Assembly (NCBI GenBank): GCA_943787425.1
Contig: CALSMJ010000003.1
Coordinates: 434,001 to 498,000 of the forward strand
DNA: 64,000 nucleotides
Direction: 5' to 3'
DNA from: an uncultured Pseudomonadales bacterium
GTDB taxonomy: Bacteria > Pseudomonadota > Gammaproteobacteria > Pseudomonadales > Azotimanducaceae
Shown piece after piece: positions 3,235 to 14,565 of the stretch (its first letter is position 1; the number at the start of each line of letters is the position of its first letter). Below the pieces are notes generated by a model. That model was given only the letters and a program-made list of their open reading frames with translations. It had not been told where the DNA came from and ran no database searches. The translations under genes were made by a program, and so were the position numbers.

Positions 3235-4572
3235 ATGCGGAGGCAAAAAAAAGCCATAACTTTTTTTTCGATGATTGTCCTCGGACTAATGACATCACTG
3301 GCGAGTGCTTATGAATTTGACCTTGTTGAGCCTGAGGACGCAGGGTTTGATCGGACAAAGTTGGAGGGTCTAAAAGCTGTCGCAGACCAGCTCTATGATG
3401 ATGGCAGAATCCCCAATTACGTCATTGCTTTGTATAGGGGCAATAAAAATTTCTATCAGGTGGCTCGCGGCAAGACTGGATTAGAGGCTGGGCAAAATGT
3501 TGATGCCAACACGATTTTTCATATGGCTTCGATGTCGAAACCGCTAGTAAGCACTGCTGTTTTTCGGCTGATACAAGAGGGCAAGCTGAACTTAAATGAT
3601 CCCCTCAGTAAATTTTTTCCACAATTTTCCCAGATGATGGTAGCCCCTGGTGGTGACTTCGGAAATCAATTCGAGCCTGCCAATAAACCGATTGAGATTA
3701 TTGATCTGCTAACTCATACCTCTGGTTTTTCCTATCAGCAGGCAGTGGCTGGTTTCGGTGATGTTGGAGAGCTTTATGATGAGTTATCGATCTTCGGATT
3801 TGGCTCATCCAATGCAGAGATGAGTGACCATCTCGACAATTTAGCGGAAGTGCCGCTGGTTGCACAGCCGTCGACTCAGTTCAACTACTCAGTGAGTACT
3901 GATGTTTTAGGCGCCATTATCGAGAAAATTACTGGAATGGATCTTGCGTCCTACCTCGATAAGATCCTTTTTGAACCCCTTAAGATGACGCATTCGCAGT
4001 TTGTCTTGACTGAAGATCAAGTACCGCTGATGAGTAATGTCTTTGGTTCTGTGCCCTTCAATCCCGCTGCTCGTTTTGAAGTCATAGGAAAAGTTCGTGA
4101 TGCTGAAGACGCAATAGATTGGAAGATCGGTGGCGTCATACCCGCTGAGATTTTTGTTAATAAGCCCCGTTGGTATTCTGGTGGGGGCGGCATTCTCAGC
4201 TCGGCTAATGATTATGCGACGTACCTAACGATGGTTGCCAATCAGGGTTCAATTGGAGAAGTCGAGATTTTGAATCCAGAGTTTGCAGCACTCCATAGCA
4301 AAAGCCTGGTCCCTTCGATAACCAGCGATGGCTTTCGTCGTGTGTTCGGAGATGCTGCAGATTATATGACCTTTGGAGGAGGTTTTGGTATAAAGCGGGA
4401 ACCAGATGATCTCGAGGCGATTGACTATATATTTTGGGCCGGTGCGTTTAATACATTTTTTTGGTTAGACCCAAAGGATGGCAGTATTGGGTTGTTTCTC
4501 ACGTCACATTGGCCTGTGCAATACAATATTTCAGATCGGTTAGAACAGCTGGTTGATGATGCGAGGTTGTAG
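3235..4572 (+). CDS. Secreted serine hydrolase, beta-lactamase/PBP-like fold
   Basis: Class C beta-lactamase-related hydrolase (family that includes EstB esterases, D-aminopeptidases and PBP4*-like proteins). It has an N-terminal signal peptide (residues 1 to about 24, cleavage near ASAYEF), the nucleophile motif S99-M-S-K102 and the second catalytic motif Y218 in FNYSVS; a glycine-rich GGGGILS segment follows near residue 317. GGAGG lies just before the ATG. It is the first gene of a five-gene operon; its TAG shares one base with the GTG of the next, paralogous hydrolase. Substrate cannot be told from sequence; esterase, peptidase or cell-wall amidase are all possible. The operon implies a periplasmic or surface role linked to signalling. 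Confidence 0.85.
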   Translation: MRRQKKAITFFSMIVLGLMTSLASAYEFDLVEPEDAGFDRTKLEGLKAVADQLYDDGRIPNYVIALYRGNKNFYQVARGKTGLEAGQNVDANTIFHMASMSKPLVSTAVFRLIQEGKLNLNDPLSKFFPQFSQMMVAPGGDFGNQFEPANKPIEIIDLLTHTSGFSYQQAVAGFGDVGELYDELSIFGFGSSNAEMSDHLDNLAEVPLVAQPSTQFNYSVSTDVLGAIIEKITGMDLASYLDKILFEPLKMTHSQFVLTEDQVPLMSNVFGSVPFNPAARFEVIGKVRDAEDAIDWKIGGVIPAEIFVNKPRWYSGGGGILSSANDYATYLTMVANQGSIGEVEILNPEFAALHSKSLVPSITSDGFRRVFGDAADYMTFGGGFGIKREPDDLEAIDYIFWAGAFNTFFWLDPKDGSIGLFLTSHWPVQYNISDRLEQLVDDARL

Positions 4573-5894
4573 TGAATCCTTTGGTATATCTTTTTTCTTG
4601 TTTTATGTTCACTGGTTTAGGTCTTTGGATTGGTGACGCTCGAGCCGATGAGAGCTCGGATTTGGCGATACTTGAGGAAAAAATAGCGGCGATTGTTGAT
4701 CCGTTAGTGTCTGAGAAGTTGCTGCCTGGCTATTATCTTGCGATTTATGCTGAGGATAGATTGTTGGTTGAGCGTGCAATGGGCTTTGCCGATGAGAAGC
4801 GTCAATTAAGGCCAACTGGAGATACCTTGTACGCTATTGCGTCCATGACCAAACCTTTAACAGCGATCGCTATGCTGCATCTCATTGAAAGCTCTGAGTT
4901 AACGCTGGACTCAGAAATTAGTGATTTTCTTCCAGCCTTCGCTAGCCCGATGGTTGCTCCAGATGGCAGTTATGACAAGCAACTCGTCCTCGCCAAGACA
5001 CCCATCACGATTCGACAGTTAATGACTCATACCTCGGGACTAACCTATAGCTCGACGGTTACCGGTGTCGGTGATATTGCGGACGCGTATCGTGATTTGG
5101 AAATTCTAACGCTTGAAGCCAGTGCGGAAAGCCGGTTGGGTAATCTCGGCGATCATATCGATAGTCTTGCCGAGTTGCCGCTAGTCGCTCATCCAGGGAC
5201 TGAGTTCAATTATTCCGTGGGATACGATGTGCTCGCGCGGATCATTGAGGTTGTAAGCAAAAAAACTTTTGAGACCTATTTGAATGAATATGTCTTAGAT
5301 CCTCTAGGGATGATGGATACGAAATTTCTCCTAGAAGCAGAGGATACTGCGAGATTAGCGCAGCTATATGCACCACTGATTAGGACGATACAGGTCCCTG
5401 GTACACCCAAACGTTATCAAAAAAGCAATATGCTCCCTCGAGGCCAACGGAATTTCGGCGAACAGGTAGGAATGGTTGGTGGTGGCAGTGGTTTGATCTC
5501 CTCGGCCAATGACTACGCGCGTTTCTTGTCTTTTCTCATGAATAGGGGAGAAGGGTTCTCAAAGGTGTTATCGCAGGAACATTTTGACATGTTGCTGAAG
5601 GATCAAACTGGAAAAATCTTTGGGCCAGATTTAATGGTTGAGAGTTTGGGTGGTCAAACGCGAAACATGGTGTTTAGCCTGGCGCTAGGCATCAGGCTTG
5701 ATTCAAGTGAAGATCTGGTGGGCGAAGCAAAATACGACTTTTTAGGCTGGGCAGGAGCATTCGATACACAGTTTTGGCTCGATCCGAGCAATGGCACGTT
5801 CGGAGTGTTCATGGCGCAGCATACCCCGTCGAGATATCGGGTTACCGAAGGAATAGAAGAAGCGGTTGATATTTTCATGAGCTCAAGTAACTAG
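4572..5894 (+). CDS. Second secreted serine hydrolase, paralogue of the upstream gene
   Basis: Same family and same length class as 3235-4572: signal peptide (residues 1 to about 26, ending GDARAD), nucleophile motif S91-M-T-K94, and Y214 in FNYSVG. Shared blocks include the THTSG motif, LPLVAHPG and the C-terminal [16 protein letters not shown], so the pair probably arose by gene duplication. The GTG start overlaps the upstream TAG by one base, which indicates translational coupling. The two proteins differ enough to have different substrates or to form a heteromer; neither can be shown here. The next gene, a hybrid kinase, starts 10 bases after the stop. Confidence 0.83.
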
Positions 5895-5904
5895 GCGATT
5901 AGCT

Positions 5905-8900
5905 ATGCAGATCAGAACGCTCATACTACTCTTGTCTACAATTAGTGCCTTAGCCGTAGCGGGTGTCGTTGGGTACTTTTCGACGTTAAGAGAGGCTGCC
6001 CAGAGAGATGCTGATTCTGAAGTCAGATGGCAGATCTACTCTGACTCTTTAAATAGGTACATTGATTCCGCAGAAGAGGAATTGGAAGCTTTTGGGCTTG
6101 CCGGACCAGGTTTCCTGTTTTGGCGGCCTGAAAATGCTCAACCGCTTAATTTTTCTCGTAGTCAAAACCGTTCAAACTACTTCCAGGATTATAGTTCTGT
6201 AGCTAGCGGCAAAGTCGAGAATCCAATGATTAAGGCGCTTGTGATGGGACAAGACCTTAGCGATGCTGAACGTATTTTGAAAATCTATTTTGGGCCCTCG
6301 CTTCAAAAAGGCGAACTTTTGTTTTTTCGAGTTATCGACGCTGAGACGCTTGAGCAAAAAACCTGCAAAAAATCTCTTTTTGCTCGGAAGTACAATCCAT
6401 GCAACTCAATTTATGAGACCGATTATATTGGTGTTGGTTCTCGATTCGATTTGTATCAGACAATGATGCAGTCGGGTGAGGCCTGGAGTGGTCAGATGCT
6501 CCACTCTACAACGACTGATGATCAATATAATTTAGTTCATGTCTTTCCGATTATTGTTTCTGAGCAAGTTAGATTGATTGTTGAAGTCGGCTCGTCGATG
6601 ACTCCAGTGATAGAGACGGTTTCATCTGAAATGGGCATCAATGCAGCCATTGTAAATTTAAGTCGCGGCGCTGATTTTTATACTGAAGATAATCAGTCCT
6701 TGACAACATTGGTGGATTTTATTCGAGGGCGGGGAAGTTTTGATCGCTACGTTTTGTCGAGTGAACTTAACAAAGAACTAATGTTGTTCCCCATCGGGGT
6801 AGAGGAATTAGATCAATTTCAAGATGACGTCATCGTGTTGTATAGGGACGTCCAAGAACTCATACAAGAGCGCAACGCTTATCTACAAACTATGATTCTT
6901 CTCTCTGGATCCGCTATCGTTTTGCTATTGATGATGATGTTTTTCATACAGAGAAGTTTGCTGTCGGGGTTGGGGAGCGCGATATATGTGCTTAAGGAAC
7001 TCACTGAAGGTAAGACAGATGTTGATATAAAAAGAAGCAAAGGGTTGTTCCAAAGTCCCAACGATGAAGTGGGTCGGTTGGTTGCTGCGCTCTCAACTTA
7101 CAAAGCAAGTTTAGTAGAACTTGAGGATAATCGTAAACGCCAAGGCGAGCAAAGGCGTGAAAGAGATGCCTTAATAACTCAGAAAATGAAAACCTTGTCG
7201 TCTCAGCTTGAGGGCGAAGCTAAAGAGCTTTTAGTCTCTGACGTCGAGCGTATGGAGCAGATGGGCAGAGAGATTGAGAAAAGTATTGCTCAAGGTAATC
7301 AAGCTGAAAGAAGAAGGGCGGAGGAGGAGTCAAATCAGTTGATTGCAGTTGCCTTTGAACGCATGTCTGACCAGGTAACGGCACTGATTGAGGCGCGCAC
7401 CTCAGAGATGGAATCAGCTCGTGACGAGGCGAGAGAGGCTAATCTGGCTAAGAGTAAGTTTCTCGCCAACATGAGTCATGAACTACGAACGCCGCTGAAC
7501 GCAATCATAGGTTATAGCGAATTGTTGCTGGAGGAAGCTGAAGACGAAGGCATGGATTCGATGTCCGTTGATTTAAAGCGCATCACAGATTCTGGGGCGC
7601 ATCTCCTAAATTTGATCAACGATATATTGGATTTATCAAAAATTGAGGCGGGAAGATTGGAGCTCTACATTTCAGAGTTTTCCGTTGAGACCGTCCTCGA
7701 TGTGCTGCAGAGTGTCGCCAAACCGCTTGGGGAAAAGAATCGAAATCAAGTCAAGTTCGCCGTTGCCGACGCGTTAGGCGTAATGCGATCAGATGAAACG
7801 CGTTTGCGCCAGAGTCTGTTGAACTTAATCAGTAATGCTTGCAAGTTTACAGAGGAAGGCGAGGTGACACTATCTGCGGCCTGCTCAGAATCTGATGGCG
7901 TTGAATGGATTGAGTTTGCCGTTTCCGACACTGGGATTGGCATGACTGAAGCGCAGATGGATAAAATCTTTGATGATTTCACACAAGCCGAAGCCGAGAC
8001 GACGGCAAAATTTGGTGGTACAGGTTTAGGTCTATCAATTACAAAGCAGCTGGTCGAGATGATGGGAGGCGAGCTGTCGGTGGGCAGCGAAGAAGGGGTT
8101 GGCTCCACCTTTACGATTAAAGTACCCAGAGCGGTGCACCAAGTCGAGGAGGTTGAATCCACAGAGGCAGGTCTGCTCAGCGGCATCGATGAGGCTATGA
8201 ATCATGCCAATTTAACTTTGTTGGTCATTGATGACGATCCGTTAGCCCATGATTTGGTAAAACGAAAACTAGGCGCCGAGTCCTACAACATTATTTCTGC
8301 GCTCGATGGGGCAGATGGTTTGGTCAAGGCTAGATCGCAGCGGCCTGACCTTATATTGCTTGATATTTTGATGCCAGGGAAAGATGGGTGGGCCGTCCTA
8401 GCTGAGCTGCGAGCGGACGCCGATCTAAGTGATATCCCTATTATTGTGATCAGCATGCTCGATGATGATCAGTCAGCGACGGCTTTAGGGGCATCTGCGT
8501 ACATGACGAAACCAGTCGACCGAGATCGGCTGGTCGGCAATATACAAGCTATTTTTGGTGAGGCAACCGATGGAAAGAAGGCGCTGGTTGTTGATGACGA
8601 CGCTGAAGCGCGCGACATTGCATCAAGGTTGTTGACGGCTCAGGGTTTTGAAGTGGCGACCGCTGAGAATGGTGCCATTGCTTTTTCTAGAATGAGTGAA
8701 GGTTTCGATCTTGTGATTTTGGATCTATCCATGCCTGTTATGGACGGATTTGAATTCTTGTCTCGATTGGACGACTTAGAACTCGAATCGACGCCTCGCA
8801 TTATTGTTTATTCGGCGATGCACCTTGACGAAACTATGCGGGCAAGACTTTCAGGCGCATGTTTTGAGGTCATTAACAAAAACGAGGCCTCAGCCGAATC

Positions 8901-8949
8901 AGCGCTCTCAAGCACCGTAAAATCCGCTCTGATCAAAAAGCTCAACTAA
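5905..8949 (+). CDS. Membrane hybrid sensor histidine kinase with two receiver domains
   Basis: Order: membrane segment about 4-24, extracytoplasmic sensor region about 25-325 with no recognised domain, second membrane segment about 327-350, HAMP-like linker, long Glu/Arg-rich coiled coil (about 400-520), HisKA with phosphoacceptor H525 in [10 protein letters not shown], HATPase with DTGIGM and GGTGLGLSI, receiver 1 with D820 ([11 protein letters not shown]) and receiver 2 with D940 ([11 protein letters not shown]). No HPt domain is present. It autophosphorylates on H525 and can pass phosphate to its own receivers; the stand-alone receiver at 10920 is the obvious further partner. Its position between the secreted hydrolases and an ion channel suggests that it senses something outside the cytoplasm. 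All key residues are intact. Confidence 0.9.
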
Positions 8950-8950
8950 C

Positions 8951-10885
8951 GTGGTAAAGCAGCTTTATTACTATCTTTTTTTGTTTTCGACCACGAGCCG
9001 AGTGTTTCCTTATGTGCTGATTTTAGGTTTGGCTTCGATTGTAATCATCGTTGGTATGTCAGCCTATTTCTTTGGTTTGTTTTCGGGAGAAGCGCTGAGG
9101 GCAGAGGGCATTGATGATGCGCTCGGCGGAGGCATTATCGACACGCTCTGGTGGTCGATGAAGCATATTCTTGATCCGGGGGCGTTGTCCGAAAATTATG
9201 GTGCGCCGATCGGTGTCATTGTTTTCGCTTTGTTTAACTCAGTAATGGGCCTCATCATTACCGGAGCATTAATCGGTTTTATTGTGAGCGCAATCCAGAC
9301 CGCAATGGAAGATGCACGCAGAGGTTCGGCCACCATTCGAGAATCTGGCCATTATCTAATTTTGGGTTGGAATAGAAAAGGTACAGCGATACTAGAACTG
9401 CTGGCTAAGTATGGACAGTCACAACGCGTCGTAATTTTAACCGATACAGGAATAGAGCACGTTAGGACTGCAATCCGTCAAGGCTCTAGAGAACTACGGT
9501 CGCTTAAACTATTGCCGATGCAAGGTTCGATCTCGGTGAATAGCGAGCTTCGTAGGGTTGCGGCTCACCGAGCCTCACACATTGTTTTACTGTCTGAGGC
9601 GGATCTTGGATCGTCTGGTGACTTAACGACGATCAAAACACTGACCCTTCTTAACAGCGAACTCTACGCAAAAGAGAACATTCAACGGCCAAACATCGTC
9701 GCCGAAATCGTTAATAAAGAAAATGCGGTGATTGCGGGGATCGCTTCAAAAAACCATCATCCTCTGGTGTCGAGTAGCGATTTCATCAGTAAAACCATGG
9801 TCCAGTGTGCGCGATATCCAGGGTATTCTGAAATCTACAGCGAGCTGTTTGCCTCGGGACGATTTTTGATTGAGATCCGCTCAATCCCTAACCTGGAAGA
9901 TGTGCTTTTCGGCAATCTTGCCAGCGTTTTTAATAACGGTGCTGTTATGGGCGTGAGTTGGTTGGATGAGAGTCCCAATAAAGCCGCACGTCGGGTTTCG
10001 GTTTTGAATCCTGAACCGGACTACGATTTAACCGATGATGATCAGGTCATTGTCCTGCGGAACGTTGACGAAGAACTGAGGAGCGTAAGTTTAGACAGCT
10101 TTTCGTCTTGGGAGGAACCTCCAGAGCGCAACATTTCAAGGCCAAATGTCCGTAAAGTACTGATTCTTGCTTACAACGCGAATCTTGGTTTAATTATCGC
10201 TGAGCTTGCTAAACATGCAGCATCAGATATCGAGGTGGTGGTTGCTTGTTCGCATTCAGAGGTCGCGGAGGCGCAGGTACGTGCGCGTTATAGCGAGTTG
10301 TTCACCGAGCGCCTGGCGTTGTCTTTTGTCGAGTTTGATCTCGCTGAGGCATGGCGGCTGGAAACTTTGAATGTTGCTGCTTTTGATGTCATTTTTATTG
10401 TGGCGGATGAAACTGATAAAACCATTGATGCGGATAGTAAAACGATCATGCTGCTGCTCTTGCTTGGAGAGATAAAAAGCAAAGGGCGCGAAATAGCGTT
10501 TCCTCCGGTCGTAGCCGAGTTGCTTGACTCTGAATCAAAATTATTGTGTGAGGGGACACCACTGACGGATGCGATCGTGAGCACAGAAATTCTGAGCATT
10601 CAGTTGGCGCAATTGGTGCGAGACCCATTTTTAGAAACCCTCTATAAGGAACTGCTCAATGCGGGGGGAATTGAAATTGGCTTGCGGCGAATCGGTCATT
10701 ACGTGAATGTGTCTGCATCTGTCACAATGGCTGACGTCACGCGTTCAGCATTGCGTTTTAATGAGGTCGCCTTAGGCTATCGTAGTCAATCGGAAGGTGT
10801 TGTTATTAACCCTCAAAAGGATACAGCAAGGACCTTTTCGGAGGGGGATCTGTTGATTGTATTGGCCCAGCAGGTCTATGCGTAA
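8951..10885 (+). CDS. CASTOR/POLLUX-like ion channel with NAD-binding RCK domains
   Basis: Two N-terminal membrane segments (about 18-45 and 92-120) flank a pore-like stretch around DTLWWSMKHILDPG (residues 63-80), followed by a cytoplasmic region starting with GHYLILGWNRKG, a Rossmann-type NAD-binding loop, and a second RCK/TrkA-like half near KVLILAYNANLG. This is the layout of the CASTOR/POLLUX/SYM8 family, known in plants as nuclear-envelope cation channels for symbiotic calcium signalling and present in many bacteria without a settled role. The GTG start lies one base after the kinase stop. Coupling to a kinase and a receiver suggests that signalling gates ion flow, or the reverse. The family call is firm; ion selectivity is unknown. 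Confidence 0.85.
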   Translation: MVKQLYYYLFLFSTTSRVFPYVLILGLASIVIIVGMSAYFFGLFSGEALRAEGIDDALGGGIIDTLWWSMKHILDPGALSENYGAPIGVIVFALFNSVMGLIITGALIGFIVSAIQTAMEDARRGSATIRESGHYLILGWNRKGTAILELLAKYGQSQRVVILTDTGIEHVRTAIRQGSRELRSLKLLPMQGSISVNSELRRVAAHRASHIVLLSEADLGSSGDLTTIKTLTLLNSELYAKENIQRPNIVAEIVNKENAVIAGIASKNHHPLVSSSDFISKTMVQCARYPGYSEIYSELFASGRFLIEIRSIPNLEDVLFGNLASVFNNGAVMGVSWLDESPNKAARRVSVLNPEPDYDLTDDDQVIVLRNVDEELRSVSLDSFSSWEEPPERNISRPNVRKVLILAYNANLGLIIAELAKHAASDIEVVVACSHSEVAEAQVRARYSELFTERLALSFVEFDLAEAWRLETLNVAAFDVIFIVADETDKTIDADSKTIMLLLLLGEIKSKGREIAFPPVVAELLDSESKLLCEGTPLTDAIVSTEILSIQLAQLVRDPFLETLYKELLNAGGIEIGLRRIGHYVNVSASVTMADVTRSALRFNEVALGYRSQSEGVVINPQKDTARTFSEGDLLIVLAQQVYA

Positions 10886-10919
10886 TGAACAGTTTAATGT
10901 CTGGAGTTAGGAGTACACC

Positions 10920-11285
10920 ATGAGTAAAAAAATACTCATTGTAGAAGACAATGAAATGAATAGAGATATGTTGTCGCGTCGTTTGACGCGCAAAGGTTAT
11001 GAAATTGTCATGGCAGAGGATGGCGCAGCTGGATTGGAGATGATGTCCTCAGAGAGCCCAGATCTGGTTTTAATGGATATGGGCTTGCCAGTTATGGATG
11101 GCTGGACGGCAACAGCCAACGCAAAAGCGGACGAGAATCTGAAACAGATCCCCATCATTGCCTTGACGGCGCACGCGCTGGAAGCCGACCGTATTCGCGC
11201 ATTGGAAGCTGGCGCTGATGACTTTGATACCAAGCCCGTCAATCTGTCTGGCCTTCTTGAGAAGATGGAGGCGTTATTGGTCTGA
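10920..11285 (+). CDS. Stand-alone response regulator receiver protein (CheY/DivK-like)
   Basis: Single receiver domain of 121 residues without an output domain. Acidic pocket E9/D10, phosphoacceptor D53 in LVLMDMGLPVMDG, conserved Thr in ALTAHA and Lys in DTKPVN are all present. GGAGTTAGGAG precedes the ATG. It is the last gene of the operon that starts at 3235, 34 bases after the channel gene. As it has no DNA-binding or enzymatic part it must act by protein contact, for example as a phosphate shuttle from the hybrid kinase or by binding the channel or kinase; the partner is inference. Confidence 0.9.
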   Translation: MSKKILIVEDNEMNRDMLSRRLTRKGYEIVMAEDGAAGLEMMSSESPDLVLMDMGLPVMDGWTATANAKADENLKQIPIIALTAHALEADRIRALEAGADDFDTKPVNLSGLLEKMEALLV

Positions 11286-11435
11286 CAACGGAAAAATTCA
11301 TCTAGCTTCATTTAACCCAGGGGGTGACGCTCGCTTGGGTCTCGTCGATAAAGCTAAACAGGTGCGGCTCGTTATATGTTGTTTTAGTTATTCGTTCGTG
11401 ATCGAAGAGGAAGAGGAAGAGGAAGCGGAAAGGGT

Positions 11436-11855
11436 ATGGTTTTGGCCAAACGTTTCATTTTAGGCCTCATTTTTATCGCTGCAGCATATGTCTTGCTGAC
11501 CCTTGCAGCTTCTGAGCTGGGTAGCGAAGTGATGACGCTGCTCAGACCAAGTCAAGATGCCTCGATCAGAGAGACGCGCTTTTGGATTGTAGATGAGGAC
11601 ACTCATGCGATCATCGAGTATGGCGAAGCGGGGGACGGCTGGTTAGCGGTCTTGGAAGGTTCGCCTGAAATCGAAATCAGGTGGAGAGGGTAGGTCTTTT
11701 GCTACGCTGCAAGTCTCACCGCTCAACGGCATAACCGTTACCACTAGCTGAGGCGTGAAAAGTATGGTGTTGCAAACCAAATCATCAAATTGCTTTCGAT
11801 GACACCTGCGAGCGACTGTGCTGGTCTCCCAGTGGTACTAAAGTCATTGCTATAG
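11436..11855 (+). pseudogene. Nitroreductase/deazaflavin-type protein with two in-frame TAG stops
   Basis: One frame (about 140 codons) starts with a membrane helix, continues with RETRFWIVDEDTHAIIEYG and GWLAVLEGSPEIEI, and after TAG codons at 11691 and 11745 goes on in the same frame to REKYGVANQIIKLLS and a final TAG at 11853. These blocks match, in order, the small proteins annotated as nitroreductase/deazaflavin-dependent or PNPOx-like, where EKYG-x-A near the end is typical. Homology continuing past the stops shows nonsense decay and not a natural end. The family name is from memory of its motifs and is uncertain. Only the first 85 codons would be translated. Confidence 0.5.
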
Positions 11856-11995
11856 CAAGATGATCGCATTTTGGATTTGACTACTAGGCTGCTCGATTAA
11901 AAGACGCAAACTGAGCACTGCCTAAACCTGAGTGAGCGCTTGGGTCACCGCAAGGCTGATGTTTTTGGTCCTGCTTGCTAACGGATGGTAATCTT

Positions 11996-12366
11996 ATGAA
12001 GTTTTCAGAGGTTCATCACATCTCGTTGAATGTGCCTGATGTCCAGCGCGATACCGCTTTTATATCGATGCCCTTGGGTATAAAGCGATTCTAAGACCTG
12101 AATTGCCATTCAAAGGCGCTTGGCTTGAAATGGGGCAACAGCAGCTGCATCTGCTTGAGGTCGCTAACTTTAAAGCGCCGAAGGGCCAACATTTTGCTTT
12201 CTCAGTTGCAGATATTCTTAAAGCGAGCGATCTGCTGATCGCCCAGGCGGTCAAAGTGTCTGAGCCTCAACTGATCAAAGGGTTCTGCTTACAATGCTTT
12301 TTTAGCGACCCTTCGGGTAATTTACTGAAGTTAAACCAACCACTGCCTAGAAGGGGAGCGGTTTGA
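11996..12366 (+). pseudogene. VOC (glyoxalase/fosfomycin-resistance-like) protein with an early frameshift
   Basis: ATG at 11996 reads MKFSEVHHISLNVPDVQR, then the frame must change near 12050 to continue RFYIDALGYKAI, LEMGQQQLHLLEV, HFAFSVADI and FSDPSGNLLKLNQ to the stop at 12364. These are the usual VOC-fold landmarks: first metal-binding His, the Phe-Tyr helix, Gln/His in the middle strand and the late acidic or Asn region. The protein would have about 123 residues, the normal single-domain length. A single missing base repairs the gene, so this may be a recent mutation or an assembly indel. Confidence 0.65.
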
Positions 12367-12611: not shown

Positions 12612-14171
12612 TTACTGACTGGCGATCAACTGGCGATCAATCGCAGCCATGATGACGTTATATTTTGCAGTATTTTCAACGTTCGCCATCCCGACATAGC
12701 TTCCAAGTTCCATCCATTGATCTGCGTTGCTGTTGAAAGTCTCCCATTGTGCGAGGCCCTCCCCGTTTGGGTTGCCCGATGTCGCGAAGTTTACCCAGTA
12801 CTGCATCATCGTGTCTGACAACGCAAGGTCTTCCTCTCGCGAGAGAGGTGAAAGAAAATCAGCGCCAAAAACGTAACCGATTTCCATCGCATGGAACGCT
12901 CCTAACGTTCCTTTGCTGTCGCCTTCGGGCGTTTGCGTAAAGAAGTAGGGATAACAATCATCACCCTGGTCAGCGAGTGCTTGTGCGACGGCACGGGTGG
13001 GCGCGCAGAACAGTGAATCGCCACACATTTGTTTTGAGGAATGGATCATTTCATTAACATTAGTTGCGGGGTACAGTTTCAGTGCCGTGTCGAAGTCTTC
13101 TTCAAATACGCGCTCGAACTCAGCAACGTATGAATCGACGTCAGGGCAGAGTGCCATCTGCGCCATCGGCGAACCCCAATACAACGCTGAACCCTCAAAG
13201 GCATTGCTGCCAATCATAAGCGGCACATTATTGTGTTCGCCTTCCCTGATGATGGTCACTGGGTTCTTTAGTTGGCAGTAGCCATCGATGATGACACCAG
13301 GCAATGGGAAGGTTGCTGTTTTGTGAATAATATCTTCGGTGCTGACATTGCGCATGGCGGCGAGTTGGCCATTGCCTTTTTCACAACCCAGTACCTCGCC
13401 CAACATTTCTCCGGTTTCATGAGCGCTCAGGGGTACCGCACCGGCTCTGTCCAGTAGCTGGGTTGCCTGTGCCCCGATGCCGCTTTGTGCGATCGCTCGA
13501 TGCATGAGGCCTTTCGTTAGCGGTGACGTAAACATCGCGCAAGTCGAGTGGCCGCCTGCGCTTTCTCCGAATACGGTCACGTTACCTGGATCACCGCCGA
13601 ACTGGGCAATATTCCGGTTAACCCACTGCAAAGCGCACACCGTGTCGAGCAATCCCTGATTACCACGGCAGCCCTCGGCCGTAAGTTCGGGGTGCGACAT
13701 AAAGCCCAGCGGCCCAAGCCGATAGTTAATGCTAACTAGAACTACGCCGCGTGATGCCAGCTCCTCGCCAGGATAATGGGTGCTGGTGCCAAAACGGTGC
13801 GCTCCGCCGTGGACCCAAAACAAGACAGGAAGTTTGGCATTAGGTACTGTTGTTGGCGTAAATACGTTGAGGTACAGGCAGTCTTCATCATAAATGAGTT
13901 CTACTTCTTCCGGCGCTGACGTGCCAAGTGCATTTGCAATGGCTTCCCTGAAACCGCCCTCACCCACAACCAGCTGCGGGCAGCTTGCACCGAAGCCGGA
14001 GGCATCCCTTACGCCCTCCCAGGCTTCGGCCGGTTGCGGTGCTTGCCAGCGTAGATCTCCGACCGGAGGCGCGGCGTAAGGTATACCGCCATAGAACTGG
14101 ATGGACGCCCCGTTCTTTGCTGTGATGCCTGAGCCTGCCAGCGCGCCGGTGTCAATTGTTACTTCAGTCAT
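12612..14171 (-). CDS. Type B carboxylesterase, complete, probably cytoplasmic
   Basis: Full-length member (519 residues) of the carboxylesterase/lipase family. Landmarks in order: GIPYAAPPVGDLRW (residues 29-42), EDCLYLNVFTP (96-105), oxyanion hole HGG (121-123), NYRLGPLGF (149-157), nucleophile S204 in FGESAGGHS, GSNAFEG (likely acid) and FHAMEIGYVFG (likely catalytic His). No signal peptide is seen. It hydrolyses carboxylic esters; the natural substrate is unknown. It is divergent from the IS3 remnant and HSL-type esterase to its right. Together with the fragment at 1087-2436 it makes two genes of this family in 14 kb, but they are not close copies. Confidence 0.9.
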   Translation of the reverse strand: MTEVTIDTGALAGSGITAKNGASIQFYGGIPYAAPPVGDLRWQAPQPAEAWEGVRDASGFGASCPQLVVGEGGFREAIANALGTSAPEEVELIYDEDCLYLNVFTPTTVPNAKLPVLFWVHGGAHRFGTSTHYPGEELASRGVVLVSINYRLGPLGFMSHPELTAEGCRGNQGLLDTVCALQWVNRNIAQFGGDPGNVTVFGESAGGHSTCAMFTSPLTKGLMHRAIAQSGIGAQATQLLDRAGAVPLSAHETGEMLGEVLGCEKGNGQLAAMRNVSTEDIIHKTATFPLPGVIIDGYCQLKNPVTIIREGEHNNVPLMIGSNAFEGSALYWGSPMAQMALCPDVDSYVAEFERVFEEDFDTALKLYPATNVNEMIHSSKQMCGDSLFCAPTRAVAQALADQGDDCYPYFFTQTPEGDSKGTLGAFHAMEIGYVFGADFLSPLSREEDLALSDTMMQYWVNFATSGNPNGEGLAQWETFNSNADQWMELGSYVGMANVENTAKYNVIMAAIDRQLIASQ

Positions 14172-14255
14172 GGCTGTTTCCGGTCGTTCTGATTAGATTG
14201 CAACCCTTTGCGATCTATGGATGGATTAAGGATTATCTATTTCACCAGTGTAAAC

Positions 14256-14565
14256 AAGCCCGCGGCGAAGGCGCTCAGCTCACCAGCAAGGCTTCGCAGT
14301 CGTTTCTGGGCAAACACAATTTGCATGCGAGCATGAGCAGACGTGAGAATTGTCATGACAATGCGGTGGCAGAAAGCTTCTTTCACCTTTTGAAACGGGC
14401 ACGAATCCGGCGACACACCTATGCGACACGCGACGCTGCGAGGCAGGCGTGTTCGATTACATCGAGATGTTCTACGACCCGACCCGAAAGCACACCAGCA
14501 ACGGTATGCTGTCGCCGGTTGATTATGAAATCAAACAGGAAAAGATGAACGAAGCAGGTGTCTAA
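14256..14565 (+). mobile_element. IS3-family transposase (OrfB) 3' remnant, frameshifted
   Basis: The frame reads QLTSKASQSFLGKHN, SMSRRENCHDNAVAESFF (the region of the last catalytic Glu of the DDE integrase core) and LLKRARIRRHTY. It shifts near 14448 to read VFDYIEMFYDPTRKHTSNG, LSPVDYEIKQ and a TAA at 14563. This is the last third of an IS3-type OrfB (IS150/IS2-like groups). OrfA, the first two catalytic Asp residues and the left end are missing. The first residues run straight out of the carboxylesterase upstream region, so the element was cut there. Inactive. Confidence 0.75.

Follow-up and report, generated by a model that had tools for sequence, protein, structure and literature searches.

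The window analysed here is a 64,000-nucleotide stretch of contig CALSMJ010000003.1 (positions 434,001 to 498,000, forward strand) from an uncultured Pseudomonadales bacterium of the family Azotimanducaceae (GCA_943787425.1; 8 contigs, 3.26 Mb). It contains a five-gene operon in which two hydrolases, a hybrid histidine kinase, a channel of the CASTOR/POLLUX type, and a stand-alone receiver follow one another. Its features, with positions counted from the first letter of the window, are:

3235..4572, + strand: hyd1, an SxxK serine hydrolase (PF00144, 172.8 bits); input module
4572..5894, + strand: hyd2, a paralogous SxxK serine hydrolase (PF00144, 184.7 bits); input module
5905..8949, + strand: hybrid histidine kinase with two receivers (HisKA, HATPase_c, two Response_reg stretches)
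5983..6870, + strand: extracytoplasmic sensor A of the kinase, residues 27-322 (alignment, AlphaFold2 model, Foldseek)
7117..7209, + strand: similarity-switch zone, kinase residues 405-435 (conflicting trees, approximately unbiased (AU) tests)
7447..8919, + strand: kinase core with receivers 1 and 2 (His525, Asp820, Asp940); output module (Pfam, alignment, tree of residues 471-1014)
8951..10885, + strand: CASTOR/POLLUX-type channel (PF06241, profile search, AlphaFold2 model)
9173..9175, + strand: Asp75 of the predicted filter LDPG, kept in 11/11 aligned channels of the window's clade
10920..11285, + strand: stand-alone receiver with Asp53 (PF00072); output module

A first-pass annotation made from the sequence alone had described five intact, tightly packed genes that are AT-richer than their flanks, and both points hold. 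All five open reading frames (ORFs) are uninterrupted and lie on the + strand, with a 1-base overlap followed by gaps of 10, 1, and 34 bases, and the GC content is 0.466 in the operon vs. 0.528 across the remaining window. Among 112 sliding 8,050-base stretches, operon-overlapping ones included, two have a GC content as low or lower. Promoter and terminator scans gave site counts no higher than in shuffles, so that the operon is a putative transcription unit.

In agreement with their earlier description as paralogues with intact motifs, the hydrolases retain the Ser and Lys of SxxK and the Tyr in all aligned sequences (9/9 for hyd1; 12/12 for hyd2, where the residues are Ser91, Lys94, and Tyr214). 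Both are probably secreted, and the N terminus of hyd1 resembles a signal peptide as judged by eye. The nearest solved structure is a carboxylesterase for hyd1 and the esterase 7pp3 for hyd2, and the solved relatives nearest to both are mainly esterases; the two proteins are predicted to be esterase-like enzymes. Peptidoglycan- or beta-lactam-directed enzymes were set aside as less probable because of these structures, because the YxN motif that we take to be typical of class C beta-lactamases reads Y-S-V/I/Y in 21/21 aligned hydrolases, and because NCBIfam bla_class_C gives 40.8 and 34.8 bits vs. a cut-off of 415. A later motif in the 21 aligned sequences is W-x-G/S. In 206 genomes of the family, nothing close to hyd1 exists outside these operons. 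The hyd1 profile found nine places scoring at least 579 bits, all beside sensor-A kinases; the search is partly circular, since eight of these places are rows of the profile and score high by construction. Next in score were the hyd2 genes encoded in those operons (315-334 bits), and nothing elsewhere exceeded 275 bits among the up to eight candidates scored per genome. PF00144 as a family occurs at 18 places in the window's genome, fragments among them, which is a caveat where chance co-location is concerned. Among the loci used for comparison (numbered with the prefix L), L016 has its second hydrolase gene split into two ORFs (5605-6941), with hyd1, kinase, channel, and receiver intact, and in L075 a weakly PF00144-like ORF (1-875; 42.8 bits to the hydrolase profile) lies divergently beside an orphan channel.

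The phospho-accepting His, ATPase boxes, and receiver Asp and Lys expected of a hybrid kinase are present in 6/6 aligned kinases, with His525, the N and G boxes, Asp820, and Asp940 intact; the NCBIfam matches shown for the window kinase lie below their cut-offs. A Pfam scan reported no histidine phosphotransfer (HPt) domain at E 0.01, just as the first-pass annotation had read the protein. The same annotation left about 300 residues outside the membrane uncharacterised. The AlphaFold2 (AF2) model of this sensor A region has a predicted local distance difference test (pLDDT) score of 84.4, and its Foldseek matches include dCache receptors from E 2e-6, with TMt values mostly of 0.3-0.5 and at most 0.60 among the 50 matches listed. 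Pfam gave no Cache match for sensor A, and a search of the sensor sequence against solved structures found nothing convincing. As modelled, sensor A comes closest to Cache/PAS sensor domains, albeit at weak TM-scores, a tentative refinement of the earlier description.

The channel was assigned to the CASTOR/POLLUX superfamily from several lines of evidence. Castor_Poll_mid (PF06241) scores 60.1 bits vs. a cut-off of 26.7, and Slo-like_RCK 24.5 vs. 24. The channel profile matches LjCASTOR (6o6j) at E 5.4e-117, covers both RCK domains of the LjCASTOR and MtDMI1 gating rings, and matches MthK and BK over the pore. The AF2 model (pLDDT 83.6) has the LjCASTOR gating ring (6o7a) as its best match (TMt 0.88) and shows a pore helix set between two long membrane helices (19-40 and 87-124) and, after these, tandem RCK domains. 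The predicted filter LDPG contains no TVGYG, and its acidic Asp75 was set against the CASTOR filter motif by eye. Kim et al. (2019, PMC6697748) report that CASTOR is a Ca2+ channel and that it cannot conduct without the essential Asp265 of its filter, and give four predicted transmembrane segments for plant CASTOR/POLLUX proteins; the model of the window channel, with its two long helices, does not place it in that plant subgroup. By manual counting, the equivalents of CASTOR D442/D444 are N/E in the window, and Ca2+ gating through CASTOR's sites is not supported for the window and mixed among its relatives. In a sister subclade (L050, L055, L056, L071, L072, and L073), 6/6 channels lack the acidic DPG filter and have R/L/P-rich residues there; these channels may have another selectivity or may be non-conducting. 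The stand-alone receiver keeps Asp10, Thr83, and Lys105 in 14/14 aligned sequences and Asp53 in 13, the residue being unread (X) in the remaining one.

With the channel as bait, searches covered 58 relatives and genome sets of the class (369), family (206), order (390), and phylum (349), all of which overlap. One additional pattern scan covered named genomes, and the fetched stretches were annotated by profiles built from the window and its kin. The ten related loci from named genomes belong mostly to uncultured Pseudomonadales or Gammaproteobacteria, plus one cyanobacterium. A channel of any kind is found at E 1e-15 in 21/206 family genomes, and the window's channel clade comprises 20 genomes or records, with 11 channels placed by tree and the other loci, several of them partial, by a best match well above any outside the clade. 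Where the contig reaches, the hybrid kinase directly adjoins the channel in 18/18 clade loci and the single receiver lies on the channel's other side in 19/19. The receiver of L068 and L069 is inverted but remains next to the channel, and that of L020 occupies two reading frames. A comparison of 17 loci found common flanks among close kin and one to three flanking genes in common between a few other pairs, the operon otherwise recurring in clearly different surroundings. Because it recurs with different flanking genes, the arrangement is more than chance, and a chance neighbourhood was rejected. The families are not confined to this contig, and the synteny check that the first-pass annotation had proposed for its functional link was passed.

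A general link between CASTOR/POLLUX relatives and kinases was rejected, as 25 of 28 loci outside the clade, some on stretches of only 3-6 kb, have no kinase or receiver match at the labelling thresholds. One of these 25 is L060, in which a weak kinase-like match (27.9 bits) and an unlabelled receiver-like ORF lie about 4-7 kb from the channel. Two of the other three, L055 and L056, have both partners: no more than about 2 kb separates the channel from a large hybrid kinase, a similar receiver stands next to that kinase, and the kinases carry other sensors (SBP_bac_3/PAS or CHASE/PAS). The third, L215, has a divergent kinase-like ORF of 628 amino acids (219 bits to the kinase profile), which is read divergently from a distant CASTOR/POLLUX relative and overlaps it (7998-11869), possibly forming another kinase-channel pair. 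In the sister group, L072 and L073 have no kinase on the stretch examined, and the contigs of L050 and L071 are only 3-4 kb long.

The operon is built from modules. The kinases carry one of two related sensor types, A and B, with Cys154 and Pro165-Cys166 invariant in 24/24 aligned sensors of both. In 15 of the 16 loci where the contig reaches, the gene immediately before a kinase with sensor A, the window's type, encodes a hydrolase (L018 carries a single one; the contig edge truncates L085). Sensor B is immediately preceded by a TonB_C protein in 16 of the 17 loci examined, a count that omits three contig-edge loci and seven unfetched places. Among sensor-B places without a kinase, 14 were fetched and seven were not (G497, G505:C19, G518, G526, G527, G556:C9, and G567). 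No locus mixes hydrolase and TonB_C partners across the sensor types. Within one genus (L067, L068, L069, L080, and L158), hydrolase-bearing A and TonB_C-bearing B cassettes both occur. Their positions differ slightly but lie close to one shared anchor gene (81-95% identical), which suggests that this site is a chromosomal hotspot for cassette exchange.

The output side varies as well. Five sensor-A operons (L151, L152, L153, L155, and L156) have no channel between kinase and receiver and keep the receiver, and their genomes yielded no channel in the search of the 206 family genomes; in L157 the channel lies on another contig. Upstream sequence suffices in three of the channel-less operons, L151, L153, and L156, and each encodes a 534-amino-acid Response_reg + Guanylate_cyc protein there. 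Six channel-bearing genomes (window, L014, L016, L018, L068, and L157) leave about 1.8 kb or more to be read ahead of the hydrolases, and no cyclase was found in that sequence. On the kinase tree, channel presence needs two changes (2-3 in bootstraps). Of 11 scanned sensor-B proteins that are not kinases and have TonB_C upstream (L159, L161, L162, L164-L170, and L174), eight end in a SpoIIE phosphatase and three in a cyclase domain. In L162, the one SpoIIE locus looked at more closely, SiaC- and SiaB-like genes adjoin the sensor-B/SpoIIE gene; against the SiaA, SiaB, and SiaC equivalog models this locus scores below cut-off, and the SiaB family model alone is exceeded.

The window itself joins an input and an output with conflicting histories. 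Its hyd1 is 65% identical to that of L151 and 63% to that of L153 vs. 45% to that of L014 from its own genus, and its hyd2 is 50-53% identical to those of L151, L152, and L153 vs. 41% to that of L014; sensor similarity across most segments follows the hydrolases and is closer to the channel-less operons. The kinase core is 79-94% identical to that of L014 (segments 471-745 and 771-1014, the linker 746-770 not being conserved), the channel 80%, and the receiver 90%; around kinase residues 405-435 the closest similarity passes from the channel-less operons to congeners. For six loci, the concatenated input data reject a grouping of window, L014, and L019 (p-AU 1.1e-5), and the kinase core rejects a grouping of window, L151, and L153 (p-AU 6.1e-8); these groups were named after the trees had been seen, which flatters the p-values. 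The test is modest for the sensor alone (p 0.032) and strong once hyd1 and hyd2 are added. Together, the identity patterns and AU tests indicate that hydrolases and sensor move together and that kinase core, channel, and receiver stay together. On these comparisons the window operon appears to be a chimera, with hydrolases and sensor allied to channel-less operons and the remainder to its own genus. Old paralogy instead of recombination would produce the same conflict and equally separate histories of the two modules.

A conserved, modular unit is well supported by these results, and a compact set with swappable input, in which the channel accompanies the kinase and related sets carry a cyclase in its stead, suggests a signalling relay with ion flow as its output. 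The two esterase-like hydrolases would produce, remove, or hand over a small ligand outside the cytoplasmic membrane, and the Cache-like sensor domain would detect it. The linked two-receiver kinase, given its intact residues, could then autophosphorylate and relay to the stand-alone receiver, and the phosphorylated receiver, or the kinase's own receivers, might change the state of the channel with its two transmembrane helices and tandem RCK domains; the output would be ion flow, perhaps of Ca2+ or another cation in view of the filter Asp. We consider this whole chain, from exchangeable sensory input through a phosphorelay to a CASTOR/POLLUX-type channel output, to be evenly poised between right and wrong, mainly because the receiver-channel step is one that we infer. 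We are somewhat more tentative about a new bacterial signalling class in which a 'ligand-processing enzyme + sensor' input is joined in frame to a phosphorelay gating a cation channel. The division into sensing and response drawn by the first-pass annotation gains from the partner specificity and the different histories, whereas its ligand action and ion-flow control are still what we infer.

Several observations weigh against such a relay. Contact of the channel with the receiver or kinase is hypothetical, as is the sensed ligand. Sensor A occurs without hydrolases in L156 and sensor B without TonB_C in L070, the sole exceptions in their counts. Since five sensor-A operons lack it, the channel is dispensable to the cassette; the cyclase gene is found ahead of the hydrolases or kinase, not at the exact place of the channel, and the well-supported branches of the kinase tree force only one channel change. 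The distant channel relatives fetched mostly stand alone, the kinase-linked L055 and L056 belong to the DPG-less subclade, and the CASTOR Ca2+ residue E493 aligns with a non-acidic window residue (mapped by manual counting).

The channel could instead act in parallel or upstream, shaping local ions or a membrane potential that the kinase reads, with the receiver acting elsewhere, e.g. on a different kinase or on motility. Action at a distance is common among stand-alone receivers, the channel-less sensor-A operons keep theirs, and RCK rings are ligand-gated (PMC6697748). However, the channel, kinase core, and receiver have a common history that differs from the sensor's, the channel-less operons with enough upstream sequence carry a receiver-bearing cyclase, a typical output, and L055 and L056 retain channel and receiver despite a different sensor, and we regard this arrangement as rather unlikely. 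An envelope or beta-lactam-type stress system, with hydrolases modifying or detoxifying envelope compounds and the kinase sensing damage, appears less probable still: PF00144 does include class C beta-lactamases and DD-peptidases, and the hydrolases are co-encoded with the sensor, but their best solved relatives are mainly esterases and the class C site, the later motif, and the NCBIfam scores described above do not fit. That the genes merely travel together in a moving block without functional connection would agree with the patchy presence of the channel, the AT-richness, and the A and B cassettes near one hotspot. Yet partners are sensor-specific, hyd1 has no close relatives elsewhere, modules are exchanged inside the kinase gene, and the receiver is kept after inversion, which leaves co-location without function very improbable.

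The usual outputs of two-component systems are gene regulation, second-messenger enzymes, and motility. A phosphorelay tied to an ion channel by operon and shared history would, if true, be a new kind of output, turning extracellular chemistry directly into an ion signal, and plant symbiosis channels would belong to a family with bacterial members under kinase control. We found no paper on a kinase-CASTOR/POLLUX operon, which is weak evidence of novelty as most subscription journals lay outside the search. Bacterial CASTOR/POLLUX relatives gain a testable physiological setting, and the exchange of input and output within one kinase gene offers natural chimeras for probing sensor input and channel response.

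Elsewhere in the window, genes just 3' of the operon (11436-11693 and 12000-12366) look shortened or split relative to longer counterparts in L012 and L014, as with local decay or an assembly error. At 95-2436, two ORFs overlap: a Rieske oxygenase, matched over only a portion of the catalytic domain, and a carboxylesterase that starts at position 106 of the PF00135 profile. This looks like a deletion junction or mis-assembly. A short ORF at 14156-14548 presumably resembles the end of an IS3-type transposase.

Compared to known systems, the window kinase shares the HisKA, HATPase_c, and receiver architecture of the TorS/LuxQ/BarA hybrid systems, with its catalytic residues intact, but has two receivers, no reported HPt domain, and a stand-alone receiver and channel in addition. 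The hydrolases resemble carboxylesterases that we take to be family VIII (EstB 1ci8, Est-Y29, 4ivi, and 7pp3) in their SxxK, Tyr, and W-x-G motifs and length of about 400 amino acids; unlike these, they form a tandem pair bound to one sensor type. Related sensor B is fused to a SpoIIE phosphatase in eight loci, a likeness to SiaABCD of Pseudomonas aeruginosa (PMC7647112), whereas the window operon combines a histidine kinase bearing sensor A with a channel. With the plant nuclear channels CASTOR, POLLUX, and DMI1, the window channel shares the tandem RCK gating ring, the acidic filter residue, and the lack of TVGYG; in contrast to them it is bacterial, is modelled with two long helices vs. four predicted segments, lacks an acidic residue at the E493 Ca2+ site of CASTOR, and is encoded in a phosphorelay operon.

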